Part shown: one piece after another, positions 1-17,378 of the stretch
Numbering within the stretch: the first letter of the stretch is position 1
How the letters are laid out: each line of letters begins with the position of its first letter
Source: Flavobacteriaceae bacterium
Lineage (GTDB): Bacteria > Bacteroidota > Bacteroidia > Flavobacteriales > Flavobacteriaceae
DNA length: 64,000 nucleotides
Assembly (NCBI GenBank): GCA_018646605.1
Contig: JABGUL010000027.1
Location: forward strand, 1 to 64,000
Direction: 5' to 3'
Position numbers and translations under genes: made by a program
Notes under the pieces: generated by a model
What the model was told of the DNA's origin: nothing
The model's database searches: none
Seen by the model: the letters and a program-made list of their open reading frames with translations, nothing else

Positions 1-50
1 ATAATTTTGTTGAATTTGGACTTATAGATATCAAATAATGACACAAAACT

Positions 51-110
51 ACTCATTAACTTTAGTGGCGTTTTCTTTCAAACCACAGGCATTTCATCTT
101 CAGTAAGTTC
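51..110. repeat. Degenerate direct repeat, copy 1
   Basis: About 60 bases here match 1025-1084 with few mismatches; both hold the string TTAACTTTAGTGGCGTTTTC followed by a CCACAGGCAT-like stretch. In this copy the left arm of the terminator stem seen at 1019-1053 is missing, so it probably does not fold. Read on the minus strand both copies carry a similar protein C-terminus ending in a stop: ELTEDEMPVV here and KLTEEDMPVG in copy 2. This looks like remains of a tandem gene family rather than a living gene. Confidence 0.6.
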
Positions 111-234
111 TACAATACACTTTACCAAGAATGAAACAAGCTTCTAATGAAGTAAGTGAAGATTTGCCTTTGTTTGTTTAGTAAGTTCTGGGATTTATTA
201 TATTTGAGTATTATTAACCATAAATCTATTTAAA

Positions 235-993
235 ATGAAAAAATTATTATTTGCATTAACTTTTATAATTGGGCTTAACTCTTATGGACAGTCAACAGTA
301 ATGTTGGCAATGGTTCTTGAAGATGGAAAGGAAGATGCTTATCTAAAAATGGAAAAAAATTGGCAAATATTGAATGAGGCAGCTGTTGACAAAGGAATAA
401 TAACTCAATGGTCTGTCTGGAAAAGAACCCCAAGAGAAGGAGATGAAGGTTGGGCAGAATATTTTGTTATGATTAGACGTAATGCTGCACAAGAGAAGTT
501 AAACGTAGATTGGGAAGAATTATCTTACACGGTTTTTAAGGGGAAAAGCAAAAAATCAATTGATAAAATGCTTTCAAACCAGGGGATAGTAAAAGAAATG
601 AGAAGTAGGACTTATAAACTAGAAACTACTACAGGCTGGAGAGGACTTGAGTGGGAAATCGGCGATAAAGCATACTTTCATTATATGACACAAAAAAACA
701 AAGATTTTATTGATTATGAGAGAACTGTTTGGAAGCCAATTGCTCAACAAAGAATTCTTGATGGATATTTAAAATATTGGGGAATTAGTAAACTAGTTGA
801 TTCAAATGATTTGACAAAAGAATTAAAATCAAGTTCAACTCATATAGCATTCAATTTTCCAACTAAAAAGCAAAATGAACCAGAAATGATTCCATCTGAA
901 GACTTTTTAAGTGCTAAATCTTGGGAAGGTCTTTTAAACTCTAGAGAAATGTTGCCAGCTGAAGAACTAACTTTAGTTTATTCATCATTCTAG
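235..993 (+). CDS. Secreted protein of two ferredoxin-like (ABM/NIPSNAP-like) repeats, function unknown
   Basis: A 252-residue protein with a clear signal peptide (charged MKK start, hydrophobic core, likely cleavage after SYGQ at about residue 19), so it is exported. The mature part seems to hold two copies of one module: about residues 35-65 (Y-x3-E-x2-W ... KGIITQW) and about 160-187 (Y-E-x3-W-K-x-I ... DGYLKYWG). This helix-then-strand pattern resembles the dimeric alpha-beta barrel fold seen in many small secreted flavobacterial proteins; the assignment is by eye. No catalytic residues can be named. The gene stands alone, has its own terminator at 1019-1053, and lies between two copies of a degenerate repeat, which suggests it sits in a locus that has been rearranged. 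Confidence 0.75.
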   Translation: MKKLLFALTFIIGLNSYGQSTVMLAMVLEDGKEDAYLKMEKNWQILNEAAVDKGIITQWSVWKRTPREGDEGWAEYFVMIRRNAAQEKLNVDWEELSYTVFKGKSKKSIDKMLSNQGIVKEMRSRTYKLETTTGWRGLEWEIGDKAYFHYMTQKNKDFIDYERTVWKPIAQQRILDGYLKYWGISKLVDSNDLTKELKSSSTHIAFNFPTKKQNEPEMIPSEDFLSAKSWEGLLNSREMLPAEELTLVYSSF

Positions 994-1018
994 ATAAAAC
1001 ACTTTTTTAAACACTTTT

Positions 1019-1053
1019 AACGTCACTAATTAACTTTAGTGGCGTTTTCTTTT
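1019..1053 (+). terminator. Rho-independent terminator after the secreted-protein gene
   Basis: Arms AACGTCACTAA (1019-1029) and TTAGTGGCGTT (1036-1046) pair over 11 bp with one G-T wobble around the loop TTAACT, followed by TTCTTTT. It begins 26 bases past the stop codon at 993. It could also work on the minus strand for the decayed reading frame that ends at 1052. Confidence 0.75.
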
Positions 1054-1084
1054 AACCCACAGGCATATCCTCTTCAGTAAGTTT
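1025..1084. repeat. Degenerate direct repeat, copy 2, with a decayed minus-strand C-terminus
   Basis: Partner of the repeat at 51-110. The rest of the gap between 994 and 1298 holds no intact gene. On the minus strand a short frame (about 1147 down to 1052) encodes EIPKLTEEDMPVG before a stop, and an alternative frame upstream encodes IKELNLTINYFLRE before a stop; joined by a frameshift they would give one longer C-terminus. I read this as a pseudogene remnant of unknown family. Confidence 0.5.
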
Positions 1085-1240
1085 GGGGATTTCTGACCCT
1101 CTTAAATAGGTTTTCTCACTCACGAAGAAAGTAGTTAATGGTAAGGTTCAGTTCTTTTATAACTTGAAGAGAATCAACGCTTCAAGATATTACGAGTTGA
1201 GGTACGAATTGAGTAAAAAAAGGTAAAAGTGAAGTATAAT

Positions 1241-1262
1241 TGTACCCTAATCTGTACCCTAA
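1241..1262. repeat. Tandem 10-bp repeat TGTACCCTAA beside a tRNA gene
   Basis: TGTACCCTAA occurs at 1241-1250 and 1253-1262, two bases apart, just beyond the terminator of the minus-strand tRNA-Arg. Short tandem repeats 3' of a tRNA are where tyrosine-integrase elements attach, so this may be an attachment-site scar. No integrase is present in the window, so the reading is only inferred. Confidence 0.4.
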
Positions 1263-1270
1263 AAAGAAAA

Positions 1271-1297
1271 GAGGAAGCGTTAACTTCCTCTTTTTTT
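1271..1297 (-). terminator. Terminator of the tRNA-Arg gene
   Basis: GAGGAAG (1271-1277) and CTTCCTC (1284-1290) form a perfect 7-bp stem around CGTTAA. On the minus strand the stem follows the tRNA 3' end within a few bases and is followed by TTTTCTTTTT. The plus strand also has a T-run (1291-1297), so it may work in both directions. Confidence 0.75.
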
Positions 1298-1298
1298 G

Positions 1299-1372
1299 TG
1301 ACCTCGGCAGGATTCAAACCTGCAACCTCTTGAGCCGTAATCAAGTGCACTATTCAGTTATGCTACGAGGCC
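1299..1372 (-). tRNA. tRNA-Arg (anticodon ACG), with A19-U56 instead of G19-C56
   Basis: The minus strand folds as a full cloverleaf of 74 nt. The acceptor arms GGCCTCG and CGAGGTC pair with one wobble; the D stem is GCAT/GTGC; the anticodon stem CTTGA/TCAAG encloses TTACGGC, giving anticodon ACG for arginine CGN codons; the T stem is GCAGG/CCTGC with loop TTTGAAT. U8, A14, A21, U33 and A58 are kept. CCA is not encoded (the 3' sequence is ACA). Two nearly invariant bases differ: position 19 in the D loop (TGAATA, not TGGATA) and position 56 in the T loop (TTTGAAT, not TTCGAAT). These two bases pair in the tRNA elbow, so the change is compensatory. Confidence 0.9.
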
Positions 1373-1488
1373 ATTTTACGATTGCAAATATAGCTATTTT
1401 CTTTTTTCACCACAGCAGAATGTGCTTTCATTTTTTTAAAAATAAAAATGATTTAGGTAACTATAATGTATCTTGTGCTCTTTTTATT

Positions 1489-2424
1489 ATGGACTTTATA
1501 GCAATTGGATTGGGATTATTTCTTCTTATAAAAGGAGGGGACTGGTTGATGGAGGCGTCAGTTTCATTATCATTACAATTAAATATTCCTAAAATCATTA
1601 TAGGAATGACGGTTGTTTCTTTTGCTACTTCTGCGCCAGAGTTGATTGTTAGTATAAAAGCAGCTCTTATGGGTCATCCCGATTTGGCTATGGGAAATGT
1701 GGTGGGTTCAAATGTTGCAAATTTGGCTTTTGTTCTTGGAATTGTGATATTGATATCTCCTATTTATGTTACTAAAAATTTCTATAAGTTGGATTGGCCC
1801 ATGATGTATGTGGCTTCACTAATTTTTTATTTTTTCGTAGTTCAAGATGGAATTCTAAGTCGTTTTGAGGGGGTTATATTATTGATTCTTCTTTTTGGCT
1901 TTTTGATTTTTTTACTTTTTTTCCAAGGAAAAGCTGTACTCGAAGAAGGTGCGATTCAAACCGCAACGACTAGCTTCAAAATGATAGGGTTTTTACTTTT
2001 TACTGGGGGTTGTTCATTGTGGTTAGGATCGGAGGTGCTGATCAAAAGTGCCGTCTCTTTAGCTCAGAACTTAGGGGTAAGTGAACGTGTCATAAGTATT
2101 TCTATTATTTCAGTTGGTACCAGTATCCCTGAGCTTACAGCTTCAGTTATTGCTATCATCAACAAAGAAAAAGCATTGTCATTGGGTAATTTGATCGGGT
2201 CAAATATCTTTAATATCCTTGCGGTAATGGGTATTACTTCGGTTATACAGCCAATAGTAGTTCAAGATCAGAATCTATTGAACGTTGACTTTATATGGAT
2301 GCTTTCAATTTCTTTACTGATTCTACCTTTAGTTTTTGTATTTACTAAATTCAAATTAGGACGTTATGAAGGGCTTATCTTACTGGGTTTATATACATTA
2401 TTTATTCTTCAGATGATTTCATAA
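1489..2424 (+). CDS. Calcium/sodium antiporter, CaCA family (YrbG-like)
   Basis: A 311-residue inner-membrane protein of about ten membrane segments that exchanges Na+ for Ca2+ or a similar cation. It shows the two inverted alpha repeats of the family: TSAPELIVS with GNVVGSNVANL in the first half, and GTSIPELTASV with GNLIGSNIFNIL in the second. The acidic residues in the two PEL motifs are the usual ion ligands. I chose ATG 1489 (MDFIAIGLG) because the frame upstream runs through the antisense of the tRNA and gives no sensible protein. It is alone between the tRNA and a bidirectional terminator shared with the convergent glutamine synthetase gene. Confidence 0.9.
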   Translation: MDFIAIGLGLFLLIKGGDWLMEASVSLSLQLNIPKIIIGMTVVSFATSAPELIVSIKAALMGHPDLAMGNVVGSNVANLAFVLGIVILISPIYVTKNFYKLDWPMMYVASLIFYFFVVQDGILSRFEGVILLILLFGFLIFLLFFQGKAVLEEGAIQTATTSFKMIGFLLFTGGCSLWLGSEVLIKSAVSLAQNLGVSERVISISIISVGTSIPELTASVIAIINKEKALSLGNLIGSNIFNILAVMGITSVIQPIVVQDQNLLNVDFIWMLSISLLILPLVFVFTKFKLGRYEGLILLGLYTLFILQMIS

Positions 2425-2456
2425 AAAAACACCCTAATACTGTTTAGGGTGTTTAA
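2424..2456. terminator. Bidirectional terminator between antiporter and GSII genes
   Basis: AACACCCTAA and TTAGGGTGTT form a stem of at least 10 bp around a short loop, with A-run on the left and T-run on the right. It lies between two convergent genes (stops at 2424 and 2479) and can serve both. Confidence 0.85.
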
Positions 2457-2478
2457 TTTTCAACAAATCTACTTTACA

Positions 2479-3486
2479 TTAAAGTTTAGCCGATTTTACA
2501 GTTTTTATGATTCTTGCTGCGATTTTGTATGGATCACCATTTGAAGAAGGTCTTCTGTCTTCTAGCCATCCTTTCCAACCTTTTTCAACAGTCATAATTG
2601 GAATTCTAATAGACGCTCCTCTGTCGGATACACCAAAACTAAATTCATGAATAGATTGTGTTTCATGCTTTCCAGTCAAACGCAGCTCATTATGAGCCCC
2701 ATATACATCGATGTGTTCTTTAACAACAGGTCTGAATGCTTCACATATTTTACTGTAGACTTCTTCAGAACCACAGGTTCTTAGGATTTCATTTGAGAAG
2801 TTAGCGTGCATACCAGATCCATTCCAATCTGTATCACCTAGTGGTTTTGGGTGCCATTCAATAGCAAGACCATATTTTTCTCCTAGACGTTCAAGTAAAT
2901 ATCGAGAAACCCACATTTCATCTCCCGCTTTTTGAGCACCCTCAGCAAAACACTGATATTCCCATTGGCCAGATGCAACTTCAGCATTAATTCCTTCTAC
3001 ATTGATTCCTGCCTCAAGGCATTGGTCTAAATGCTCTTCAATCATTTCTCTACCAAAAGAATTTTTGGCACCAACAGAACAGTAAAATTGTCCCTGAGGT
3101 GTTTGATCTTTAGGAAATCCAAAAGGGAGGTTTGTTTCCGGATCCCACAAGAAATACTCTTGTTCAAAGCCAAACCAAAAATCATCATCATCATCATCAA
3201 TGGTAGCTCTACCATTAGTTGGGTGTGGTGTACCATCAGCATTTAAAACTTCAGTCATTACTAACCATCCATTTTTACGATCAGGATCTTCATATAATGC
3301 CACAGGTTTAAGAAGACAGTCTGAAGCGTTTCCTTCTGCTTGTCTAGTTGAAGAACCATCAAAAGACCACATTGGACAATCGTCTAATGTTCCTTTAAAA
3401 TCTGTTACAATTTTGGTTTTACTGCGGAGATTTGCAGTTGGTTGATAACCATCTAACCAAATATATTCTAGTTTAGCTTTACTCAT
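2479..3486 (-). CDS. Glutamine synthetase, type II (eukaryote-like)
   Basis: A 335-residue enzyme that makes glutamine from glutamate, ammonium and ATP in the cytoplasm. The length and the WSFDGSSTRQA motif (about 40-50), FGFEQEYFLW (about 105-114, metal/glutamate binding), NGSGMHANFS and DRGASIRIP identify the short, eukaryote-like GSII class and not the 470-residue GSI. There is no adenylylation-site tail. Residues 97-102 are six aspartates in a row, all GAT, written as (ATC)6 on the plus strand at 3181-3198, just before the active-site FGFEQEY. The gene is divergent from the type III enzyme at 3688, and a GC-armed palindrome lies in the shared 201-base gap, so both may answer to nitrogen status. 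It ends at a shared terminator. Confidence 0.95.
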   Translation of the reverse strand: MSKAKLEYIWLDGYQPTANLRSKTKIVTDFKGTLDDCPMWSFDGSSTRQAEGNASDCLLKPVALYEDPDRKNGWLVMTEVLNADGTPHPTNGRATIDDDDDDFWFGFEQEYFLWDPETNLPFGFPKDQTPQGQFYCSVGAKNSFGREMIEEHLDQCLEAGINVEGINAEVASGQWEYQCFAEGAQKAGDEMWVSRYLLERLGEKYGLAIEWHPKPLGDTDWNGSGMHANFSNEILRTCGSEEVYSKICEAFRPVVKEHIDVYGAHNELRLTGKHETQSIHEFSFGVSDRGASIRIPIMTVEKGWKGWLEDRRPSSNGDPYKIAARIIKTVKSAKL

Positions 3487-3576
3487 GATTAATTAATTTT
3501 TTGCTAAAATAAAATTTTTAAGGCACCCCAAATAAAAGAATGATGCAAAGAAATTAACAATATTATATTTTTATTA

Positions 3577-3597
3577 ACCCCCTATAAATTTGGGGGT
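3577..3597. promoter_or_regulatory. Candidate nitrogen operator, site 1
   Basis: Perfect 6-bp arms ACCCCC and GGGGGT separated by nine bases (TATAAATTT). The core differs from the site at 14349-14368 (minus strand) at only 2 of 19 positions: CCCCCTATAAMTTWGGGGG. It lies between two divergent genes, so it cannot be the terminator of either. It is 91 bases upstream of the glnN start and 90 bases upstream of the GSII start. A role as an operator for ammonium assimilation is inferred. Confidence 0.6.
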
Positions 3598-3627
3598 AAA
3601 ATTTAATATATCTCATTTTTTTTGATT

Positions 3628-3660
3628 TTGACCGTCAAATATTCAAAATGACTATCTTTG
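3628..3660 (+). promoter_or_regulatory. Bacteroidota-type promoter of glnN
   Basis: TATCTTTG at 3653-3660 matches the TAnnTTTG -7 box exactly, with TTG at 3628-3630 as a -33 element, 22 bases apart. The start codon follows 27 bases after the box. Confidence 0.55.
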
Positions 3661-3687
3661 ATGCAATAATTTTATCCTTTCCTTTTC

Positions 3688-5871
3688 ATGCAAACCCTAC
3701 GTAAAAAAAGTCTTTTTAAGTTATCCTCAGCCTCTGAAGAGGTTCCTATGACAACGGCAAATAGTTTAGATTTTGGAGCTCATGTTTTTGATATACCTAA
3801 GTTAAAACAATTTTTAAGCGAGAAAGCTTTCAAGCAAATGCTTCAATCAATTGATAAAGGGATACCTATTAACATAGTACTTGCTGATCAAATTGCTTCT
3901 GCGATAAAGGCTTGGGCAATTTCAAAGGGAGCAACTCATTACACACATTGGTTTCAGCCCATAACGGGCGCTACTGCAGAAAAACATGACTCTTTTTTTA
4001 ATCTTGACGAAACGGGAATACAAATCGAAAAGTTTGAGGGTGAGCAGTTGGTTCAACAAGTACCCGATGCTTCAAGTTTTCCGGGCGAAAGTTTAAGAAA
4101 TACTTTTGAGGCAAGGGGTTTTACGACTTGGGATCCTACCTCACCTGTTTTTATTTATGAGGGTACGCTATGTATACCATCGCTTTTTATGTCCTACACT
4201 GGTGAGGCACTTGATTTTAAAGCTCCTCTTATTAAATCTCTGCAAAAATTAGATACTGCCGCTACTGATGTTTGCCAATATTTTGATAAAGGAGTTGGTA
4301 AAGTAAATGCCACCTTAGGTTGGGAACAAGAATATTTTTTAATCGACAGAAGTTTGGCTGCAAGTCGACCTGACTTGATGCTCACGGGAAGAACATTATT
4401 AGGACATCCCCCTTCAAAAGATCAAGAATTGAATGATCATTACTTTGGTTCTATTCCAGGTCGTGTAAGCCGTTTTTTAAAAGACTTGGAGTCTGAAAGC
4501 AATGCCTTGGGTATTCCAATTAAAACATATCATAATGAAGCGGCTCCAAGTCAATATGAGATAGCTCCAGTGTATGAAGTTGCTAATCTTGCCGTTGATC
4601 ACAATGCGCTTTTGATGGATTTAATGAATAAAATGTCGTTCAGACATAATTTTATTGTGCTTTTTCATGAAAAGCCTTTTGAGAAAATAAACGGTTCTGG
4701 AAAGCACACAAACTGGTCTTTAGTTACTAATTCTAAGATTAATCTATTGAGTCCAGGAAAGACCCCCATGGGTAATTTGCAGTTTTTATCCTTTTTCATC
4801 AATACAATTGCTGCTGTTTTAAAACACGAAGCCCTACTTAGAGCCTCTTCAGTTTCTGCAAGTAATGATCTACGGATTGGATTACATGAAGCTCCGTCTG
4901 CAATTCTTTCGATTTTTATCGGAAAGCATTTGATGCAAGTTTTAGAAGAGTTAGAAAACGTTTCTAAAGGAAAGCTTTCTCCACAAGAAAAAACAGATAT
5001 TAAACTAAATGTAATTGGTAAAATTCCAGAAATCTTGTTGGACAATACCGATGAAAATAGAACTTCTCCGTTTGCTTTTACAGGGAATAAATTTGAATTT
5101 AGAACAGTAGGTTCAAAAGCAAATTGTGCAAAATCCATCACAGTGCTCAATACTATTGTTGCTGAGCAATTATTTTTATTTAGAGATTCGGTAGATGAAT
5201 TGATAGAGAATAAAAACATGAAGAAAGACGATGCGATTTTTAATACGCTGAGAGAGATTATCACTTCAATTAAAGATATTTTTTACGCCTCCGAAAATGA
5301 AAAGGAAAAAGCAGAGTCATTGGCAAAAAAGAAGGGATTAAGTAACAATAAAACTACTCCTGAAGCATTACCTGCCTACATAAATGAGAGTTCAATTAAG
5401 CTCTTTGAAAGCTTAGGAGTTTTTTCGGAAAATGAACTTCAAACACGATATCAAATTGATCTAGAAGAATACATATCTTCTATTCAAATAGAATCAAGGA
5501 CGCTAGGTGATCTGGCTCAGAATCACATTATCCCAACGGCGATTAAGTATCAAAACATTTTGATTGAAAATGTCAAGGGGATTAAAGAAATATATGGGTC
5601 TAGCTTTAAAGAACATGCTAGTGAACAGATTTTAATTTTGGAAAGAATTTCAAAACATATAACTGAAATAAATAGTGGAATTTATGCTATGGTGGAGGCT
5701 AGAAAAAAAGCTAATGTTATAAAAAATCATCATAAAAAGGCAATGGCTTATTGTGAAAATATTTTGCCATTTCTTTCGAGTATTCGTTATCATTGTGATA
5801 AGCTTGAGCTTACGGTCGATGATGAAATTTGGCCGATGGCCAAATACCGCGAATTGTTGTTTATTCGTTAA
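3688..5871 (+). CDS. glnN: Glutamine synthetase, type III
   Basis: A 727-residue GSIII, the large glutamine synthetase class typical of Bacteroidota and cyanobacteria; a homododecamer in relatives studied so far. Visible landmarks are LGWEQEYFLID (about residue 210-220), the class-specific stretch GRTLLGHPPSKDQELNDHYFGSI split over about 235-255, NGSGKHTNWS (about 335) and the alpha-helical C-terminal region of about 200 residues characteristic of the class. The start at 3688 is the first ATG after the promoter; another ATG lies 20 codons in. With GSII immediately divergent and an Amt/PII operon 8 kb away, the window carries a duplicated ammonium-assimilation capacity. Which enzyme is used under which nitrogen supply cannot be told from sequence. 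Confidence 0.95.
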   Translation: MQTLRKKSLFKLSSASEEVPMTTANSLDFGAHVFDIPKLKQFLSEKAFKQMLQSIDKGIPINIVLADQIASAIKAWAISKGATHYTHWFQPITGATAEKHDSFFNLDETGIQIEKFEGEQLVQQVPDASSFPGESLRNTFEARGFTTWDPTSPVFIYEGTLCIPSLFMSYTGEALDFKAPLIKSLQKLDTAATDVCQYFDKGVGKVNATLGWEQEYFLIDRSLAASRPDLMLTGRTLLGHPPSKDQELNDHYFGSIPGRVSRFLKDLESESNALGIPIKTYHNEAAPSQYEIAPVYEVANLAVDHNALLMDLMNKMSFRHNFIVLFHEKPFEKINGSGKHTNWSLVTNSKINLLSPGKTPMGNLQFLSFFINTIAAVLKHEALLRASSVSASNDLRIGLHEAPSAILSIFIGKHLMQVLEELENVSKGKLSPQEKTDIKLNVIGKIPEILLDNTDENRTSPFAFTGNKFEFRTVGSKANCAKSITVLNTIVAEQLFLFRDSVDELIENKNMKKDDAIFNTLREIITSIKDIFYASENEKEKAESLAKKKGLSNNKTTPEALPAYINESSIKLFESLGVFSENELQTRYQIDLEEYISSIQIESRTLGDLAQNHIIPTAIKYQNILIENVKGIKEIYGSSFKEHASEQILILERISKHITEINSGIYAMVEARKKANVIKNHHKKAMAYCENILPFLSSIRYHCDKLELTVDDEIWPMAKYRELLFIR

Positions 5872-5913
5872 TAACTATATCGAGATTTGAATGCCTTGTT
5901 TTATCAAAAAAAT

Positions 5914-5921
5914 TATTTTTG
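5914..5921 (+). promoter_or_regulatory. -7 box of the purM promoter
   Basis: TATTTTTG matches TAnnTTTG and ends 14 bases before the purM start codon. TTG triplets upstream lie 15 and 24 bases away, so the -33 element is uncertain. Confidence 0.45.
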
Positions 5922-5935
5922 TATAAAATAATTAT

Positions 5936-7105
5936 ATGTCAGATCGTTACAGCCGTCGAGGTGTTTCTGCTCAAAAAGAAGATGTCCATAATGCCATAAA
6001 AAAAATCGATAAAGGATTATTTCCCAAAGCTTTTTGTAAAGTTATTCCAGACGTTTTAACGGGTAGTGATGATCATGCTATCGTTATGCATGCAGATGGG
6101 GCAGGAACCAAGTCAGCTTTAGCGTACATGTATTGGAAAGAAACAGCAGACCTCTCTGTTTGGAAAGGGATTGCCCAAGATGCTCTAATCATGAATATTG
6201 ATGACTTACTTTGTGTCGGTGTGACCCAAGATATTTTACTTTCTTCAACTATTGGGCGAAATAAAAATCATATTCCGGGAGAGGTAATCGCTGCAATTAT
6301 AGAAGGTACAGAAGAGCTGCTTGAAAACTTGAAGGAATGGGGAGTTTCGATTTACAGTACAGGAGGGGAGACAGCCGATGTAGGTGATTTGGTAAGAACA
6401 ATCATTGTTGATTCTACAGTAACGGCTAGAATATCTAGGGCTAAAATTATTGACAATGCTAATATTAAAGACGGCGATGTGATTGTAGGACTTGCTTCCT
6501 ATGGACAGGCTACTTATGAAACTTCATACAACGGAGGGATGGGAAGTAATGGCTTGACATCAGCTAGGCACGACGTATTTGCTAAAACGTTAGCTGAAAA
6601 ATATCCCGAAAGCTTCGATCCTGAAGTCCCTGAGGACTTGATTTATTCTGGTTCACGTGAGTTAACGGAAACATTAGAAGGAGTGCCAATTGATATTGGA
6701 AAATTGGTATTGTCTCCAACACGAACCTACGCACCTATCATTCAAAAAATATTTTCAGAAATGGGATCAAACTCAATTCATGGAATGGTACATTGTAGCG
6801 GTGGTGCACAGACTAAAATTTTACATTTTGTGGACAATCTTCATATTGTAAAAGACAACCTTTTTCCAGTTCCTCCTTTATTTGATATGATTCAAAAAGA
6901 GTCTGGCACCTCCGGAAGAGAAATGTATCAGGTTTTTAATATGGGACATCGGATGGAATTATATGTTTCTCCAGATAAAGCAGAAGAAATTATCGCTATT
7001 TCTAAGTCTTTCAATGTTGATGCTCAAGTTGTTGGCCACGTAGCTTCAGCGCCTATTAAAAAATTGACTTTAAAAACACCTTATGGTGTTTTTGAATACA
7101 ATTAA
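5936..7105 (+). CDS. purM: Phosphoribosylformylglycinamidine cyclo-ligase (AIR synthetase)
   Basis: A 389-residue enzyme for the fifth step of purine synthesis, ATP-dependent ring closure of FGAM to AIR in the cytoplasm. It has the conserved DGAGTKS motif (about 55-61), the NIDDLLCVG segment (about 92-100) and STGGETADVGD (about 145-155), which bind nucleotide and substrate. It is about 40 residues longer than the E. coli protein, as is usual in Bacteroidota, the extra residues lying within the C-terminal half. It is followed after 67 bases by prfA, which has its own -7 box, so it is probably transcribed alone. Confidence 0.95.
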   Translation: MSDRYSRRGVSAQKEDVHNAIKKIDKGLFPKAFCKVIPDVLTGSDDHAIVMHADGAGTKSALAYMYWKETADLSVWKGIAQDALIMNIDDLLCVGVTQDILLSSTIGRNKNHIPGEVIAAIIEGTEELLENLKEWGVSIYSTGGETADVGDLVRTIIVDSTVTARISRAKIIDNANIKDGDVIVGLASYGQATYETSYNGGMGSNGLTSARHDVFAKTLAEKYPESFDPEVPEDLIYSGSRELTETLEGVPIDIGKLVLSPTRTYAPIIQKIFSEMGSNSIHGMVHCSGGAQTKILHFVDNLHIVKDNLFPVPPLFDMIQKESGTSGREMYQVFNMGHRMELYVSPDKAEEIIAISKSFNVDAQVVGHVASAPIKKLTLKTPYGVFEYN

Positions 7106-7157
7106 AACGACATTAGTCTTTACAAAAGTTTCTAACTATTATTCGCAAGACAATTTG

Positions 7158-7165
7158 TAAATTTG
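7158..7165 (+). promoter_or_regulatory. -7 box of the prfA promoter, abutting the start codon
   Basis: TAAATTTG fits TAnnTTTG exactly and ends seven bases before ATG 7173. Transcription would start at or just before the start codon, giving a leaderless or nearly leaderless mRNA. No clear TTG is seen 19-21 bases upstream. Confidence 0.5.
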
Positions 7166-7172
7166 CACTATC

Positions 7173-8249
7173 ATGATAGAAAAACTTCAAATCATTCAAC
7201 AACGATTCGATGAAGTCTCTGACTTAATCATTCAACCCGATGTGATTACGGATCAAAAGCGATATATTCAACTAAACAAAGAATATAAAGAGCTTTCAGT
7301 GATGGTTGAAAAGATGAATCAGTACAAAATTATCATCTCTAATCTTGAGGAAGCAGAACTCCTTCTGAAGGATGAGCAAGATGAAGAAATGATTGCAATG
7401 GCTAAAATGGAAATTGAATCTGCAAAGGAAAATCTTCCAAAGCTAGAAGAAGAAATCAAATTTCTATTGATCCCTAAAGATCCTGAAGACGCTAAGAATG
7501 TTGTTGTTGAGATTCGCGCAGGTACAGGAGGAGATGAGGCAAGTATTTTTGCGGGTGATTTATATCGTATGTATACTAAATATTGCCAATCACAAAATTG
7601 GCAAGTTAGTTTTGTAGATTCAAGTGAAGGGACAGCAGGTGGATTCAAAGAGGTTATTTTTGAGGTTTCAGGCGATGATGTTTACGGCACATTGAAATAT
7701 GAATCTGGTGTTCACCGTGTTCAGCGTGTTCCTCAAACAGAAACGCAAGGACGTGTGCATACCTCTGCGGCAACCGTAATGGTATTGCCGGAAGCAGAAG
7801 AATTTGATATTGAAATTGACATGAATGAAGTGCGGGTTGATTATTTTTGTTCTTCTGGTCCAGGAGGACAGTCAGTTAACACCACCTATTCTGCAGTTCG
7901 TTTAACCCACGAGCCTTCAGGAATAGTAGCACAATGTCAAGATCAAAAATCACAACACAAAAATAAAGATAAGGCCCTTAAGGTATTACGCTCTCGTTTG
8001 TACGAGTTAGAATTATCTAAAAAATTAGCTTTGGATTCAGAAAAGAGAAATTCACTGGTTTCTTCTGGGGATCGATCAGCAAAAATAAGAACCTATAATT
8101 ACCCTCAGGGAAGGGTTACAGATCATCGCATAGGCTTAACGCTTTATGATCTGCCAAATGTGATCAATGGTGATGTTCAGAAACTCATTGATGAACTTCA
8201 GTTATATCAAAATACCGAAAAACTTAAAGAGGCTGGAGAAGTATTATGA
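7173..8249 (+). CDS. prfA: Peptide chain release factor 1
   Basis: A 358-residue translation termination factor that reads UAA and UAG. The GGQ motif that triggers peptidyl-tRNA hydrolysis is at residues 231-233 within [10 protein letters not shown], and the stop-codon-reading PxT tripeptide is PQT within [11 protein letters not shown]. The order is RF-1 N-terminal helices, the PCRF domain with [10 protein letters not shown], then the GGQ domain; the PxT motif rules out RF2. Its stop overlaps the pyrF start (ATGA at 8246-8249), so the two are translationally coupled and probably form one transcript with the hydrolase behind. Confidence 0.97.
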
Positions 8250-9073
8250 CCACTGAGAAACTAGTTGATCAAATCAAGAAAAAAAAGTCATTCCTATGTG
8301 TCGGTCTTGATATTGATTTGGATAAAATTCCTCCACATTTAAAAGATGAGGAGGATCCAATTTTTTCTTTTGCAAAGGCAATAATTGATGCCACTCATAA
8401 ATTTGTAGTTGCTTACAAGCCAAACTTAGCTTTCTTTGAATCTTATGGAGTTGAAGGATGGCAGGCTTTCCGTAGGATTATGGATTATTTAAACACGCAT
8501 TTTTCAGATCATTTCACCATTGCAGATGCTAAAAGAGGGGATATTGGAAATACTGCAAACCGATATGCTAAAGCTTTTTTTGAAACGTATAATGCAGATT
8601 CTGTTACGGTTGCTCCTTACATGGGAAAGGATGCTGTTGAGCCGTTTTTGACTTTTGAAGGAAAACATGCTATACTTTTAGCTTTAACGTCTAATCCAGG
8701 GGCATTTGATTTTCAATACACCAAGGAAAATAATGACACATTATTTCAAAAGGTTTTAAAGACTAGTTTGACATGGAATAATGCAGAAAGACTTATGTAT
8801 GTTGTGGGTGCCACTAAAGCCGATGCCTTAACTTCAATCAGGGAAATTGTCCCTAATTCTTTTCTTCTTGTTCCAGGCGTGGGGGCTCAGGGAGGTAGTT
8901 TGTCGGAGGTTGCTCGAGCTGGAATGAATTCACAGTGTGGACTATTGGTAAATTCCTCTAGGGGAATACTCTATTCTTCCAAAGGCACTGATTTTGCTGA
9001 GGCTGCTGCAAAAGAAGCAAGTCAACTTCAAAAAGAGATGGCAGTTTACTTAGAAGAAAAAGGAATTATATAG
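8246..9073 (+). CDS. pyrF: Orotidine 5'-phosphate decarboxylase
   Basis: A 275-residue enzyme for the last step of UMP synthesis. The length and the catalytic motif [16 protein letters not shown] (about 93-108) place it in the second, longer PyrF subfamily common in Bacteroidota and actinobacteria. Other markers are [11 protein letters not shown] near the start and VPGVGAQGG near the phosphate-binding end. It overlaps prfA by four bases and shares one base (9073) with the following hydrolase gene. Confidence 0.96.
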
Positions 9074-9846
9074 TGCTTTATCACTCGATATATCCTGCCG
9101 AAAATAATTCAAAAAAATGGATCTGTTTTGTTCATGGAGCAGGAGGTAATTCTTCAATTTGGTTCAATCAAGTTCGATTTTTTAAAACCTATTTCAATGT
9201 TTTGCTGATTGATCTTCGCGGTCATGGAAAGTCAGAAGTATCTCCAGAAGGAACAGAATATACCTTCAATATTATTATTGATGATATCCTAAATGTTTTG
9301 GATGAAAACAAAATCAAAAAATCCCATTTTGTAGGGATTTCCTTGGGGAGTATTTTAATTCAGAAAATGCTTCAAAACCACAGTAATCGTGTTGAAAAAA
9401 TTGGTTTGGGAGGTGCAATTTTGAATTTAAATCCACAATCACGATTTTTAATGCTCATGGGTAAATTGACCCAAAGTATTTTACCTTTTATTTGGATCTA
9501 TACCTTTTTTGCTTACGTTATTATGCCGTACAAAGCGCACAGAAAATCAAGAGCACTTTTTATTAAAGAAGCAAAAAAAATTTCACATAACGAATTTAAA
9601 CGCTGGTATCGGTTAACGGCAACCATTCTTCCTGTGCTGAAGCGTATTCGAGATAAAGAAATGAGAACACCAATTTTGTATATTATGGGTTCACATGACT
9701 ATATGTTTTTGCCTTTTGTTAAAAAGATTGTTGCTTTACATCGGTCTTCCAGTTTAATAACTGTTGCTAATTCAGGACACGTTGTTAATATAGATCAGCC
9801 TGAGGAGTTTAATAGTCAATTGTTATCTTTTCTCCTAAGTGACTAA
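9073..9846 (+). CDS. Alpha/beta-hydrolase, substrate unknown
   Basis: A 257-residue alpha/beta-hydrolase. The nucleophile is Ser90 in GISLGS; an oxyanion motif FVHGAGGNSSIW is at about 19-30; the acid is probably in GSHDYMF and the histidine in NSGHVVNIDQPEEF, so the triad is complete. The GTG start at 9073 overlaps the pyrF stop codon, and no other start preserves the N-terminal strand. Lipase, esterase or C-C hydrolase function is possible; nothing in the sequence decides between them. It was considered for MenH, the step missing from the menaquinone operon at 39-47 kb, but there is no positive evidence. Confidence 0.85.
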   Translation: MLYHSIYPAENNSKKWICFVHGAGGNSSIWFNQVRFFKTYFNVLLIDLRGHGKSEVSPEGTEYTFNIIIDDILNVLDENKIKKSHFVGISLGSILIQKMLQNHSNRVEKIGLGGAILNLNPQSRFLMLMGKLTQSILPFIWIYTFFAYVIMPYKAHRKSRALFIKEAKKISHNEFKRWYRLTATILPVLKRIRDKEMRTPILYIMGSHDYMFLPFVKKIVALHRSSSLITVANSGHVVNIDQPEEFNSQLLSFLLSD

Positions 9847-9883
9847 CTATGAGTTTTACTTTAGTTGAAAAGTGTTTCTGAGT

Positions 9884-9905
9884 TTTCAAGTGATTTCACT
9901 TTTTA
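9884..9905. terminator. Weak hairpin between convergent genes
   Basis: AAGTG and CACTT pair around ATTT, followed by TTTT. It lies in the 128-base gap between the hydrolase and the convergent amidohydrolase, the place a terminator is expected, but the stem has only five base pairs. Nothing else is visible in the gap. Confidence 0.3.
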
Positions 9906-9974
9906 AATCCCATTTCTTTTACAAAATGCATGAGTTGCTTATACTACTTAGAGTAAATATTTATTCATGATACA

Positions 9975-11537
9975 TTAATTACCTGGCTGAATTATTTTGA
10001 AGTTCTCTTTGATTTTAGCTTCATCAACCATTTTCTTTACTTCTCTAAGAAGTTGTTTTGCATCATAAATGAGTCCCTCACGAATGGTATATTTTACACC
10101 ACCCACTCTAACCACTTCATTATCTTCATTGAGTTTTATGGCTCCTGTTCCGTAGAGTACTTTGAAGTTTTGTAATGGGTTTTCTTCAACAATTACAAAG
10201 TCAGCACTTTTTCCAATTTCAATTGAACCTGTTTCGTCTGAAATCCCAAGTGCCTCTGCACCATTCAAGGTAGCTGATCGGATGATTTCAAGAGGATGAA
10301 AACCTGCTTCTCGAAGTAATTCCATTTCACGGATGTATGCAAATCCATAAAGCTGAAATATAAAACCAGAATCTGAACCTGTTGCAATACGCCCCCCTCG
10401 GTTTTTGTATTCGTTAATAAAAGTCATCCAAAGTTTGAAGTTTTCTTTCCAGGCGACCTCTTCTTCTGTACCCCAATAATGCCAATAAGATCCATGTGAT
10501 ATTTTACTCGGTTGATAAAAACGCCAAAGAGATGGAAGCGTATAGTCCTCATGCCACTCTGCTCTTCTCGCGCGATGTAAGTCTCTACTAGCCTCATAGA
10601 TATTAAATGTGGGTACCATAGTAAAATCTAGTGATATCAATTCATTCATAACGGCATTCCAGTGATCTGAATAGGGTTCAGCAGCTTGTTTCCATAATTT
10701 TCCTGCTTCTCCAAAACGGTGTTGTTCGTTTTGATAATTATAATCCAAAGGGTAATCCTGTACGGTACGATCTTCAAACAAAGCTTCAGGGAGTCCATAC
10801 CAATGCTCCATTGATGTAAGTCCTGCTCTTGCAGAATGTAAAACGTTCCATCGTGCAACACTAAGTTGAGCATGGTGTGCTGCAGAGCGTAATCCTAACT
10901 TATTATTTTCATTTAATGCCGCAGACATGATTTTGGGTTCAGCACCAAAAAATTTAATACCATCGGCTCCATTTTTTGCATTTTCTCTAACCCATTCTCT
11001 AGCTTGCTCTTCAGTACTTATAGGCTTTTTACTACCCTGACCAAAACCGGTGTAAGCTAAAATTCTTGGAGCAATAATTTCATTTTTTGAACTTCGCTTT
11101 TTCAAATCAACAGCATATTCAACTCCCCTGCCACTGGGCTCTCTCACCGTTGTGACACCGTGAGCAAGCCAAAGCTTAAATACATAATCCCAATCTGCTC
11201 CTTGCGATACACCTCCTATATGTCCGTGCATATCAATGAATCCTGGAAGGACAAACATACCGTTTGCATTAATTTCTTTGCCTCCTTTTTTTAATTTTGG
11301 TCTTTTGTTTTCTTGAATAGAAACACCGGGATAGCCGACCACATTTATAGCAGTTATTTTATTATTTTCAACTGTTATGTCAACTGGGCCCAGCGGGGGA
11401 GCACCATTTCCGTTTATTAATGTTGCCCCTCTAATAATAAGTTGTGAAAAGGGGCCTTCAGAAGAATTGGTAGCTTGCGAAATGCCAAGGGTTGTGATAA
11501 AAAAGAAAAGAATTGATAAAATGAATGAAGATCTCAT
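9975..11537 (-). CDS. Secreted metal-dependent amidohydrolase
   Basis: A 520-residue amidohydrolase-superfamily enzyme with an N-terminal signal peptide (about residues 1-21, ending ISQA), so it acts outside the cytoplasm. The metal ligands of the TIM barrel can be placed: H-G-H in GFIDMHGHIGG (about 100), the HH pair in RSAAHHAQLS, EHWYG, and the aspartate in ATGSDSG. The C-terminal composite domain (LNGAEALGISDETGSIEIGKSADF in pieces) is typical of imidazolonepropionase- and prolidase-like members. The substrate could be a cyclic amide or a dipeptide; it cannot be told. Read after the Amt gene but separated from it by a strong terminator. Confidence 0.88.
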   Translation of the reverse strand: MRSSFILSILFFFITTLGISQATNSSEGPFSQLIIRGATLINGNGAPPLGPVDITVENNKITAINVVGYPGVSIQENKRPKLKKGGKEINANGMFVLPGFIDMHGHIGGVSQGADWDYVFKLWLAHGVTTVREPSGRGVEYAVDLKKRSSKNEIIAPRILAYTGFGQGSKKPISTEEQAREWVRENAKNGADGIKFFGAEPKIMSAALNENNKLGLRSAAHHAQLSVARWNVLHSARAGLTSMEHWYGLPEALFEDRTVQDYPLDYNYQNEQHRFGEAGKLWKQAAEPYSDHWNAVMNELISLDFTMVPTFNIYEASRDLHRARRAEWHEDYTLPSLWRFYQPSKISHGSYWHYWGTEEEVAWKENFKLWMTFINEYKNRGGRIATGSDSGFIFQLYGFAYIREMELLREAGFHPLEIIRSATLNGAEALGISDETGSIEIGKSADFVIVEENPLQNFKVLYGTGAIKLNEDNEVVRVGGVKYTIREGLIYDAKQLLREVKKMVDEAKIKENFKIIQPGN

Positions 11538-11555
11538 GATTATTTTTTTTCAAGA

Positions 11556-11592
11556 TAAACAAAAAAACCTCCTGATTCAACAGGAGGTTTTT
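11556..11592 (-). terminator. Terminator of the porin-glnK-amt operon
   Basis: A perfect 12-bp stem, AAAAACCTCCTG (11563-11574) with CAGGAGGTTTTT (11581-11592), loop ATTCAA, followed on the minus strand by TTTTTTTG. It lies 28 bases past the Amt stop. Confidence 0.9.
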
Positions 11593-11619
11593 CAAAAGTT
11601 AAAAATTTAATCTTAACTA

Positions 11620-12861
11620 TTAGTGTTGGTTTAATCTAAAATCTGCATAAGCATCCATGCCATGTTCAGCTAAGTCTAAACCTTTTGATTCTTCTTCGGC
11701 ATCAACACGTAAACCGATCGTGTATTTGATCACTAATAGAATAATTCCAGCTGTAATTACAGAGAATGCACCTACAATACCAACGCCCGCTAATTGAATT
11801 AAAAATTGATCAACGCTTGCCATAGCACCAAATATACCTACCGCCAGGGTTCCCCATATACCACAAATTAAGTGTACGGCAACAGCCCCTACAGGATCAT
11901 CTAATTTTAATTTATCAATTAGTGCTACTCCTAGAACGATGATTACTCCAGCAATAAGCCCAATTAAAATAGCGTCGGTAGGACTCATTTGGTCTGCGCC
12001 AGCTGTAATCCCTACAAGTCCTCCCAAAACGCCGTTCATAAACATAGTTAAATCAAAATTTTTGTACATAATATTAGAAAATATTGCAGCAGAAACACCT
12101 CCTGCAGCCGCAGCTAAGCAAGTTGTTACTAATGTTAATGAGGTTAATTCTGGATCTGCTGATAGCACTGAGCCTCCATTAAATCCAAACCATCCTAGCC
12201 AAAGAATTAATACTCCTGCCGCTGCCAGTGGGATGTTGTGCCCGGGAATCGCATTGGGTTTTCCATCTTTACCAAATTTTCCAATTCGAGCTCCTAATAA
12301 ATAGATTGCTACAAGTGCAGCCCATCCACCTACAGAGTGAACTAAGGTAGAGCCTGCAAAATCATAAAACCCCCAAGAATCTAGGAATCCACCTCCCCAT
12401 TTCCAAGAACCAATAATGGGGTAAACAAGTCCAACATAGAGAATTGAGAATAACATAAATGCATTTAGTTTAATTCGCTCTGCTACTGCTCCAGAAACAA
12501 TCGTAGCAGCGGTAGCAGCAAACATCCCTTGGAATAAAAAGTCTGTCCACCAAGTGTACCCGCCACTAGCATATTCAACAGTCATTCCACCTTCAGGTGC
12601 TGCAATCCCGAAGCCTGCAAATTTTAAAATTCCCAGAGAACCTTCTTCAAAACCTGGATACATGAGGTTGAAGCCTCCAAGGCAGTAAAGTAGCAGCCCT
12701 ACGGAGATCACAAAAAAGTTTTTAAATAAAATATTGATTGTATTTTTCTGGCGTGTCAATCCTATTTCTAGAAATGAGAAACCAAGGTGCATAAAAAAGA
12801 CTAGGGCTGTACAGATCATCATCCATACGTTGTTGGCAGTAAAAAGTGCAGTACTTTCCAT
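11620..12861 (-). CDS. amt: Ammonium transporter
   Basis: A 413-residue Amt/Rh-family channel of about 11 membrane segments in the inner membrane. The twin pore histidines are visible in GSTLVHSVGG and AVAVHLICGIWG, and the conserved aspartate of the entry site lies in the YDFAGS segment. The cytoplasmic tail GLRVDAEEESKGLDLAEHG with DAY near the end is the conserved regulatory tail that PII proteins contact. The PII gene lies directly upstream (25 bases), and a porin gene precedes that, so the three form one ammonium-uptake operon. Confidence 0.97.
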   Translation of the reverse strand: MESTALFTANNVWMMICTALVFFMHLGFSFLEIGLTRQKNTINILFKNFFVISVGLLLYCLGGFNLMYPGFEEGSLGILKFAGFGIAAPEGGMTVEYASGGYTWWTDFLFQGMFAATAATIVSGAVAERIKLNAFMLFSILYVGLVYPIIGSWKWGGGFLDSWGFYDFAGSTLVHSVGGWAALVAIYLLGARIGKFGKDGKPNAIPGHNIPLAAAGVLILWLGWFGFNGGSVLSADPELTSLTLVTTCLAAAAGGVSAAIFSNIMYKNFDLTMFMNGVLGGLVGITAGADQMSPTDAILIGLIAGVIIVLGVALIDKLKLDDPVGAVAVHLICGIWGTLAVGIFGAMASVDQFLIQLAGVGIVGAFSVITAGIILLVIKYTIGLRVDAEEESKGLDLAEHGMDAYADFRLNQH

Positions 12862-12885
12862 AAAATTGATTTTAAAGTTTATTTT

Positions 12886-13224
12886 TTAATTTAAAGATTT
12901 TCCTCCCTTTTCACCGGTACGAATTCTATAGGCTTCGTCTACAGGTAGGATGAATATTTTTCCGTCTCCAACATTGTCAGTTGCTGCAGATTTTATAATT
13001 GCATCAATAGTTGGCTTTACAAAATCGTCATTTACTACGATGGATAAATAGCGTCTTTGGATTTCAGAAGTACTGTAGCTAATACCACGGTATACATGAC
13101 CTTCCTTCTCGTTTCCTACACCAGTTACATCCCAATAGCTAAAGAAATTTACCTCAACATTGTGAAGAGCTTCTTTTACTTGATCAAATTTTGACTTACG
13201 GATAATTGCTTCGATTTTTTTCAT
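12886..13224 (-). CDS. glnK: Nitrogen regulatory PII protein
   Basis: A 112-residue trimeric signal protein that binds ATP, ADP and 2-oxoglutarate and plugs the Amt channel in relatives. It begins MKKIEAIIRKSKFDQVKEAL, as in GlnB/GlnK. Tyr50 in RGISYSTSE corresponds to the uridylylated Tyr51 of E. coli, but the T loop reads GNEKEGHVYRGISY and no uridylyltransferase is in the window, so modification is uncertain. The B and C loops (GDGKIFILPVDEAYRIRTGEKG in two pieces) are intact. Between the porin and amt genes; the pairing with amt points to GlnK rather than GlnB. Confidence 0.96.
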   Translation of the reverse strand: MKKIEAIIRKSKFDQVKEALHNVEVNFFSYWDVTGVGNEKEGHVYRGISYSTSEIQRRYLSIVVNDDFVKPTIDAIIKSAATDNVGDGKIFILPVDEAYRIRTGEKGGKSLN

Positions 13225-13275
13225 GAGTTATTAGTTTTAATGTTGTTAAATTTTTATGAATATACATTTAAACAT

Positions 13276-14298
13276 TTAAAAAGAATAAATAGCTGCAACT
13301 ACAAATGAAGCAAGGCTATCAGCAGTTTCTGTTGGAGAAATAGCAAAGATTTCAGCAGAAGCAGAGTCGATTCTAAATTCAGGCTTAAAAATAAAGTTTC
13401 CAGCAGTGTAGCTACCCGTAAGTGTCAGTGAGAAATTATCAGCATCTCCATTATCAACGAGTGCTCCATAACCATCTGTTTCTGAGAAAAATTCTCCTCT
13501 AAGTCCTATTGCAAAGGAATCTGAGGTTGTAATTTGTGGATATAAAGCAACACCAGCAAAACCTTTGTCGCCATCAAGAGCAGCAGTAGTAGCATTGATT
13601 CCCAGGAAGAAGCTATCTGATAAATCAAATCCTCCTGTATAGTCAAGCTGGAAATAATCTTCTCCTGCTAATAAATTAATAAATTGACCATAAAGCCCTA
13701 GTTGAGCACCAAAGGCAGTATATCTGTCATAATTTGCTTCTGTCTGATCTGTTTGATTAAAGATACCTAGCATTAATGAAATGTCATCTGACAAGGTAAA
13801 GTCTGCTTTTACCCCAGTGTGAGAAAAGGGACCATAGGAGAACATGTATGAAGTAGAGTAGTTGAAATTTGCAGCAGGAGAAATAACTTCATATCCTAAG
13901 AAGGTATTGAAATTTCCTAAAGTAATTTTTACTCCCTCAGCAAGATTGTAATATGCATAAAGTTGATTTACAAGCTCCGAGGAATTACCAGAAGAACCAA
14001 ATACTGCATCAGTACCTCGAGGTCCAAAAACAACATCGGCAACAAAGCCTGATTTTTCTCCTTCATAGGAAACGATAAAGTTTGCCATTCCTAAAGCAAA
14101 ACCGTTTAGGTTAGCAAAAGAAGTTCCAGGTGCTACTGGGTCTTCAGAGAAGCTTGCTCTGAAGTAGGTATCAACAGTTCCACTAAAATTAAAGCTTGGC
14201 GCATCTTGAGTTTCATCAGTTTCTTGGGCGTTTACTGCTGAGATGTTTAACAGCGTAATAGAAAGACCAAGAATAAATAAGTGTTTTAAGTTTTTCAT
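13276..14298 (-). CDS. OmpL-like outer-membrane beta-barrel porin of the ammonium operon
   Basis: A 340-residue outer-membrane protein. It has a signal peptide (about 1-24, ending AVNAQ), then alternating amphipathic beta-strands throughout and a C-terminal aromatic residue (YSF), as needed for barrel assembly. The sequence resembles the OmpL/Bbp2-like porin-2 family (GTVDTYFRASF early, ANFNYSTSYMFSYGPFSHTG in the middle). It is the first gene of an operon with glnK and amt, so it is probably the outer-membrane channel through which ammonium or another small nitrogen source enters. That role is inferred from the operon, not from the protein. Confidence 0.85.
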   Translation of the reverse strand: MKNLKHLFILGLSITLLNISAVNAQETDETQDAPSFNFSGTVDTYFRASFSEDPVAPGTSFANLNGFALGMANFIVSYEGEKSGFVADVVFGPRGTDAVFGSSGNSSELVNQLYAYYNLAEGVKITLGNFNTFLGYEVISPAANFNYSTSYMFSYGPFSHTGVKADFTLSDDISLMLGIFNQTDQTEANYDRYTAFGAQLGLYGQFINLLAGEDYFQLDYTGGFDLSDSFFLGINATTAALDGDKGFAGVALYPQITTSDSFAIGLRGEFFSETDGYGALVDNGDADNFSLTLTGSYTAGNFIFKPEFRIDSASAEIFAISPTETADSLASFVVAAIYSF

Positions 14299-14322
14299 AA
14301 AATTAATAGTTAAAGATTTTTA

Positions 14323-14330
14323 ACAAAAAT
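14323..14330 (-). promoter_or_regulatory. -7 box of the porin-glnK-amt promoter
   Basis: The minus strand reads TATTTTTG, matching TAnnTTTG, 24 bases before the porin start codon. No TTG stands about 20 bases upstream; that position is taken by the palindrome at 14346-14370, which suggests a promoter that depends on a bound activator. Confidence 0.45.
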
Positions 14331-14345
14331 AGATATGAATCAAAA

Positions 14346-14370
14346 GTACCCCCTAAGTTATAGGGGGGTA
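14346..14370 (-). promoter_or_regulatory. Candidate nitrogen operator, site 2
   Basis: Arms GTACCCCC and GGGGGTAC enclose a 9-10 base spacer; with flanking A and T the pairing extends to 12 bp. The minus-strand core matches site 1 at 3577-3597 at 17 of 19 bases. It covers the expected -33 region of the porin operon. It could instead be a terminator for crcB, whose stop is 104 bases upstream, but the same sequence at site 1 cannot be a terminator. Confidence 0.6.
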
Positions 14371-14400
14371 CTTTTATATTTTTATTTATTTAAAAATATA

Positions 14401-14421
14401 TACCCTATAAAAATAGGGGTA
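14401..14421 (-). promoter_or_regulatory. Candidate nitrogen operator, site 3 (shorter copy)
   Basis: TACCC and GGGGTA arms around TATAAAAATA. It has the same layout as sites 1 and 2 with shorter C and G runs, centred about 52 bases from site 2, or roughly five helical turns. It may be a second, weaker operator, or the terminator of crcB. Confidence 0.4.
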
Positions 14422-14473
14422 CTATAAAAAAAAGGCTATGAATTTATGAAAATAACAAAAAATAGAGATTCGT

Positions 14474-14851
14474 TTACGAATTTGTAAGTCGAATTAACGA
14501 AAAACCTAGTACAACCATAATTAGGCCTCCAATAAGGCTTAATAAGGCATAAGAAAGAAAAGTGGTGTAATTTCCTGTTTTAAGGAATTCTAGACCTTCA
14601 GCACTAAATGTAGAAAAAGTAGTTAGACCCCCACAAAAGCCAACAGTGGCAAAAAGATAAAGGTCAGATCGAAGGAGGTTCGCTTTTAATGCCCACCCAA
14701 TAAGTATTCCAATAAGAAGACACCCAAAAAGATTGACAAATAAGGTAGGCCATGGAAAGGCGCCTTTTGCAACGGGGATTATTTTTGATGTGAGAAAACG
14801 AAATACACTTCCTAAGCCACCCCCTAAAAAAATATACAAGATGGTTTTCAT
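14474..14851 (-). CDS. crcB: Fluoride channel CrcB/Fluc
   Basis: A 125-residue, four-helix membrane protein that lets fluoride leave the cell; it works as an antiparallel dimer. Typical motifs are GGGLGSVFR near the start, FVNLFGCLLIG, and GFCGGLTTFSTFS (about 72-84), which carries the central Na+ site and the phenylalanines lining the pore. Only one copy is seen, so it should be a homodimer. It overlaps by four bases the small membrane protein gene upstream. No fluoride riboswitch could be recognised in the short leader. Confidence 0.94.
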   Translation of the reverse strand: MKTILYIFLGGGLGSVFRFLTSKIIPVAKGAFPWPTLFVNLFGCLLIGILIGWALKANLLRSDLYLFATVGFCGGLTTFSTFSAEGLEFLKTGNYTTFLSYALLSLIGGLIMVVLGFSLIRLTNS

Positions 14852-15036
14852 TTTTGAGTTAAATATTTGATTAGTACTAATAAACTAAAAGCAATTAAAA
14901 ATCCTAAAAGTATTTTATAACTCCCTTTAAAGTACTTAGGTTGATTTTTTTTATCTGTTTTATAAGAGTAAATAATAACTCCTATAAACACAATGAAAAA
15001 ACAAAGCCCAAAAATCAATTGTCCAAAAGAAAACAT
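14848..15036 (-). CDS. Small two-helix membrane protein coupled to crcB
   Basis: A 62-residue protein with two hydrophobic segments (about 5-23 and 41-58) joined by a basic stretch (YKTDKKNQPKYFKGSYK). Its stop overlaps the crcB start (ATGA), so it is translationally coupled to the fluoride channel. I recognise no domain. A helper or regulator of the channel is possible, but rests only on the coupling. Confidence 0.75.
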   Translation of the reverse strand: MFSFGQLIFGLCFFIVFIGVIIYSYKTDKKNQPKYFKGSYKILLGFLIAFSLLVLIKYLTQK

Positions 15037-15092
15037 TTTTTAAATTTTGTCTAAATTTAGAAATAAATAATCCATTAACATCTTTTATAATT

Positions 15093-17373: not shown

Positions 17374-17378
17374 TTGTT

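Follow-up and report, generated by a model that had tools for sequence, protein, structure and literature searches.

A candidate two-site operator at glutamine synthetase and ammonium uptake genes of Flavobacteriaceae

In this study, we ask what role is played by a short palindrome with C- and G-runs that lies between two divergent glutamine synthetase genes in a Flavobacteriaceae genome and recurs before the genes of a porin, a P-II protein and an ammonium transporter. The whole stretch of 64,000 nucleotides analysed here is called the window. The genes concerned are as follows; genes mentioned elsewhere in the text without a Pfam or NCBIfam match were named by eye from their translations or by tblastn to the proteins of the window:

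2479 to 3486, minus strand: glutamine synthetase, GSII type (Pfam Gln-synt_N and Gln-synt_C)
3688 to 5871, plus strand: glutamine synthetase type III, GSIII, glnN (Pfam GSIII_N and Gln-synt_C-ter)
11620 to 12861, minus strand: ammonium transporter, amt (Pfam Ammonium_transp; TIGR00836 above cut-off)
12886 to 13224, minus strand: P-II protein, glnK (Pfam P-II)
13276 to 14298, minus strand: outer-membrane porin, BBP2 family (Pfam BBP2, 8e-59)

The best NCBIfam match of the GSII protein is GlnII, at 364 bits under a cut-off of 500.

An earlier note on this DNA had described two copies of the element, and both are present: CCCCCTATAAATTTGGGGG at 3578-3596 on the plus strand and CCCCCTATAACTTAGGGGG at 14349-14367 on the minus strand, with 17 of 19 bases identical. 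A third copy, ACCCTATAAAAATAGGGGT at 14402-14420, had been missed and lies 53 bp from the second. The palindrome spans 17 bp, with CCC at -8 to -6 and GGG at +6 to +8 from its centre and an AT-rich middle, and footprints within the genus reduce it to a conserved core, CCC-N11-GGG. The motif CCCCC-N9-GGGGG proposed earlier thus described a real element by too strict a pattern; among the 10 matches to CCCC-N11-GGGG in the source genome (1.98 Mb, 44 contigs; reversed control 4), only sites A and B, listed below, fit it. That such runs are improbable by chance was borne out in the window, where 0.16 matches to CCCC-N11-GGGG would be expected and 3 are present, two of which overlap each other at site B; 0 of 100 shuffles reached this number. 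The consensus MCCCYW9RGGGK, for which the list is complete at 0 or 1 mismatch, occurs exactly in the source genome only at A (3578-3596) and C (14402-14420), and when one mismatch is allowed, site B, a second, shifted reading of A and five further places appear; at up to two mismatches there are 107 matches, scarcely more than the 99 of the reversed control. The sites in the window, none assigned to a strand, are:

3576 to 3598: site A, palindrome, centre 3587, 28.5 bits
3524 to 3544: site A', weak half-site with CCCC at 3526-3529, centre 3534, 8.6 bits
14347 to 14369: site B, palindrome, centre 14358, 25.2 bits, with a counterpart in the porin promoter alignment
14400 to 14422: site C, palindrome, centre 14411, 20.1 bits

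Site A is centred 101 bp upstream of the GSIII start and 53 bp from A', which lies on the GSII side, and C and B are likewise 53 bp apart. The 8.6 bits of A' are unremarkable by themselves; its C-run shares a column in the genus alignment. What recurs is thus not a single element but two sites spaced by 52-53 bp. In our reading, A is the candidate distal and A' the candidate proximal operator of the GSII promoter, and B looks like the proximal and C the distal candidate operator of porin-glnK-amt. A and B do share the element, as had been claimed; in terms of position, it is C and not B that corresponds to A.

Firstly, the sequences might be intrinsic terminators or RNA hairpins instead of DNA sites. 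B and C are terminator-like by a simple scan, which found 4 such structures against 0.2 expected, and both come after the end of crcB. Site A, in agreement with the earlier argument, is no terminator, as it lies between two gene starts and the scan scores none there. Moreover, the pairing at 52-53 bp and the distance to the promoter box described below are both constant, many sites consist of one half only, which makes a hairpin impossible, and no Rfam match falls on the sites at the gathering threshold, the only match over positions 1-20000 being a tRNA at 1299-1372 on the minus strand. The strict palindrome also occurs in 37 viral contig stretches (L412-L448), in none of which was a GS, amt, glnK or porin match found. 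Most of these viral copies are, by eye, preceded by an A-run and followed by a T-run, as a terminator would be. On balance, we find an RNA-level explanation of the set as a whole hardly credible.

The footprinting that the earlier note had called for supports an operator-like element common to ammonium genes, since it is kept before both GSIII and the porin gene in related genomes. Among 60 relatives, 42 have a GSIII match. The same genus contributed 24 GSIII loci including the window, 23 of them with usable upstream DNA (L103, with 11 bp upstream, was excluded), and in all 23, window included, the centre of a CCC-N9-16-GGG falls 98-102 bp upstream of the GSIII start codon. The alignment of these upstream regions retains the palindrome and several flanking blocks, with a second C-run on the GSII side. 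A second site at 52-53 bp scored above the cut in 15 of the 23 loci. Among genus porin promoters outside the decayed group described below, window included, 18 of 19 carry a site and 17 of 19 a pair, spaced by 52 (5), 53 (11) or 54 bp (1), pair counts for which, as for the 15 of 23 above, the model scored its own training sequences in genomes that are kin to one another and partly incomplete. The porin set excluded L076, from another family; L062 has no DNA before the porin gene, and L051 has a porin gene without a site. Several genus genomes also hold second, paralogous amt-glnK or glnK loci without the operator: the best score in eight such upstream regions (L052, L054, L057, L059, L063, L069, L060, L066) was 5.7 bits, which suggests that the two ammonium systems may differ in regulation. 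In two of these (L060 and L066, in genomes G026 and G012), a protein that by eye resembles XRE DNA-binding proteins is encoded directly before the glnK paralogue.

Beyond the genus, we used all 80 named GSIII loci, taken from at least 592 stretches and titled mostly as Flavobacteriales or their genera. A symmetric model trained on the 68 genus sites only exceeded the 99% null level in 54 of the 80, compared with 0 of 80 reversed sequences, and in 45 of the 54 the best second site, scanned for 30-90 bp around the best one, was 51-54 bp off. The same spacing emerges without any model, as same-base runs 51-54 bp apart were found 35 times in the 80 loci (0.39 in dinucleotide shuffles), and the gap from a C-run to a G-run was 9-11 in 21 cases (0.19 in the shuffles). 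In 24 of the 80 loci no site exceeded the 95% level. These include titles of Chitinophagales, Chitinophagaceae, Ferruginibacter and Edaphocola and, among those listed, also Aequorivita (L168) and Myroides (L202) loci with half-sites that are clear by eye. Of six genomes from other families, G042 has the palindrome and the other five have G- or C-run half-sites by eye. In another-family genome G038, sites of 20.2 and 10.4 bits lie 63 and 114 bp before glnK, hence 51 bp apart.

The relation of the pair to promoters was examined by the distance from the palindrome centre to the TA of a TAnnTTTG box, the box nearest 26 bp being taken where several lay downstream. The candidate boxes in the window are:

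3504 to 3511, minus strand: TATTTTAG, candidate -7 box of GSII, one mismatch to TAnnTTTG
3653 to 3660, plus strand: TATCTTTG, candidate -7 box of GSIII, a TAnnTTTG match
14324 to 14331, minus strand: TATTTTTG, candidate -7 box of the porin gene, 27 bp from the centre of B

The GSII upstream region of the window has no exact TAnnTTTG, and TATTTTAG lies 23 bp from A'. A second match on the GSIII side, TAAATTTG at 3585-3592, falls within site A, and one on the porin side, TACTTTTG at 14341-14348, overlaps with the flank of B at its edge. The most downstream centre is 25-28 bp from the box in each of the 16 genus porin promoters that have both site and box, where shuffled tails, counting any box at 24-30, would give 0.08. 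On the GSII side of the named divergent loci a site is present in 36 of 37 and a box as well in 28; the distance is 23-27 bp in 21 of these 28 and 77-79 bp, one operator spacing further, in the other 7. Within the genus a GSII box was found in 12 of 22 cases, at 24-25 bp in 7 and 76-77 bp in 5. GSIII box distances are scattered in the named divergent loci, of which 28 of 37 have both elements on that side; within the genus the box is 65-66 bp from the palindrome centre in 14 of 15 loci with a box, and in other named GSIII loci it is at 37-38 bp in 11 of 24 and at 26 bp in 3 of 24. Since in the divergent arrangement the distance to the GSII box is constant and that to the GSIII box varies widely, the pair fits the GSII promoter best and looks built for GSII rather than for glnN. 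The tie to glnN drawn earlier is accordingly the weaker one in this arrangement; many solitary GSIII genes elsewhere do have sites.

Taken together, we propose, with a probability of about 0.75, that the element is a two-site operator for a putative dimeric regulator, which would more probably activate than repress. A dimeric DNA-binding protein would read the 17-bp palindrome, and two dimers would sit on the same face of the DNA, since 52-53 bp correspond to about five helix turns. The proximal centre precedes the TAnnTTTG box by about 26 bp and would lie over the place of the -33 element; if the box occupies about -12 to -5, as we assume, the centres fall near -38 and -91. The sites are placed before GSII, GSIII, porin-glnK-amt and amt genes, and the signal would be nitrogen status, with P-II or glutamine as a possible input.

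A repressor pair would act in the opposite sense, covering both sites at ample nitrogen, bridging them or blocking the -33 region, and releasing them on limitation. The overlap of the proximal site with the expected -33 region is compatible with this, as is the suitability of two in-phase sites for bridging, although a 53-bp loop is tight. The promoters themselves divide on the matter: a TTG 17-28 nt before the box, near the -33 place, is found in 7 of 16 genus porin promoters, which a repressor could block, and in 3 of 29 named GSII promoters, most of which therefore look weak unaided. The case for activation is thus better at GSII than at the porin gene, and we hold a repressor to be doubtful, though not far-fetched. 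With regard to the putative activator, amtB and glnK transcripts of Prevotella ruminicola are reported to be higher with ample ammonium in the available part of one study (PMC5552732), in which 'promoter' and 'motif' occur 0 times. If the logic is shared, this speaks against an activator that works at low ammonium.

The earlier note had expected a genome-wide search to reveal further targets, and at 0-1 mismatch no further convincing one appeared in the source genome. The five extra one-mismatch places comprise four inside reading frames and one intergenic palindrome of 18.6 bits (L006, centre 1510, G000:C35:8332-8350) between two minus-strand genes with no recognised nitrogen role. No gltBD, urease, nitrate or peptide-uptake genes were recognised by eye at the places viewed, which included few with two mismatches. 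Two wider patterns led no further: over 38 genus genomes, CCCHW9DGGG had 146 matches against 84 reversed, and the loose form ACCC-N10-14-GGGT was not enriched (84 places, 89 reversed). A blind search for two G-runs with the operator spacing in 148 genomes of the order returned 24 places in 24 genomes, against 12 in the reversed control. Read by eye, 11 of the 24 precede GSIII (9), amt (1) or glnK-amt (1), another precedes a porin-like gene, 6 fall within reading frames and 6 lie elsewhere. Two of these last 6 are beside hemH in related genomes (L311 and L312; G125 and G040), away from known nitrogen genes.

The loss of sites is informative as well. GSIII went undetected in 11 genomes of the same genus (G010, G011, G012, G015, G016, G018, G020, G022, G024, G028, G031), at least 5 of which have GSII. 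Six of the 11 (G011, G016, G018, G020, G028, G031; 68-89% complete) were examined for decay and form the decayed group, which is defined by score rather than as a clade in a tree. The five GSII promoters seen in the decayed group score at most 5.0 bits, compared with 16.4-28.5 at GSII of 22 genus genomes, and the five porin promoters with upstream DNA score at most 9.0 bits. This joint decay at both loci fits one shared factor. The gain of a -33 box upon decay was considered but is not claimed: 4 of 5 decayed porin promoters have TTG at offset 23, and 4 of 16 intact ones have it at offset 24.

Which protein might this factor be? It should be present wherever the sites are intact, including G001 (4 contigs), G004 and G008 (85-89% complete). 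A conserved Crp-type protein (L246) acting like NtcA would suit the position of the proximal site, which is that of a class II activator, and 18 of 38 genus genomes carry its orthologue, as do 0 of the 6 with decayed sites. It was not found, however, in G001, G004 or G008, all with intact sites, and the separation of CCC and GGG is wider than that of Crp half-sites, so that we think it very unlikely. A NarL-type (GerE) orthologue, present in 19 of 38 genus genomes (E below 1e-15) and not found in G001, G004 and G008, fits poorly by its distribution, and so does Rrf2, which is in 4 of 38 genus genomes, 2 over cut-off. One of two widespread Lrp/AsnC proteins, which we regard as quite unlikely, would bring a family that senses amino acids and a domain (PF01037) present in 37 of 38 genus genomes. 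Against this, both types also occur in genomes with decayed sites, their recognition helix shows no clear change in alignments that include those genomes (type 1 from 29 genomes, type 2 from 19 of 20 stretches), and no site lies near their genes. Near candidate regulator genes in general, 110 loci being scanned, sites above 15 bits occurred only at the GerE loci L381 and L382 (15.4). A look at the neighbours of GSIII in the 80 named loci led to no regulator gene; the gene groups present in at least 4 of these loci include a BlaI/MecI-like one, so named by eye, in 7 of the 80.

A MerR-type protein of GlnR/TnrA geometry is an unlikely but more attractive candidate. The GlnR consensus TGTNA-N7-TNACA, as given in the available parts of two papers (PMC9249791, PMC3412718), has TGT at -8 to -6, as CCC is here. 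On the other hand, the letters of its half-sites are unlike those found here, and a crude protein pattern for MerR, run without a positive control, had 0 matches in 2.37 Mb of loci that lie mostly around other genes. We nevertheless make a MerR protein the first choice for testing on account of the shared register.

It is possible, and we put this forward tentatively, that the Flavobacteriales share a nitrogen-control system whose regulator would be of a kind new to nitrogen sensing, acting through two phased palindromes near -38 and -91. If so, the system would stand where NtrC, NtcA, GlnR/TnrA, AmtR or NrpR act in other groups. Flavobacteria are major marine heterotrophs, and among the open PMC papers listed by our searches we recognised none on a nitrogen operator of Bacteroidota or on its regulator. 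With a bait of exact coordinates, an inbuilt spacing test and genomes with decayed sites, the hunt for the regulator becomes a direct experiment.

Several known systems invite comparison. Paired upstream sites are familiar from NtrC, the nitrogen activator that works with sigma-54. The promoters here, in contrast, have TAnnTTTG near the operator, and the one sigma-54-type regulator of the window (21025-22188), in which a sigma-54 activator domain marks a response regulator, has no Pfam match to a DNA-binding domain. NtcA of cyanobacteria, with the box GTA-N8-TAC, replaces the -33/-35 element at promoters for glutamine synthetase and for ammonium uptake, and the flavobacterial proximal site would occupy the same promoter place. 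It differs in the protein, as one of the nearest Crp proteins was not found in some of the intact-site genomes; on the NtcA model these nearest proteins reach 22.1 and 34.3 bits, and the best of four Crp proteins scanned 34.5, all below the cut-off of 244.95. The closest likeness in form, so far as the available parts of the GlnR papers describe them, is to the GlnR/TnrA boxes of Bacilli, which are also 17-bp palindromes centred on a base, with the triplets in the same register and nitrogen genes as targets. The flavobacterial element does not match the box TGTNA-N7-TNACA itself, having an equal register and other letters: it belongs to another phylum, carries CCC/GGG in place of TGT/ACA around an AT-rich middle, and its pairing at 52-53 bp looks obligatory.
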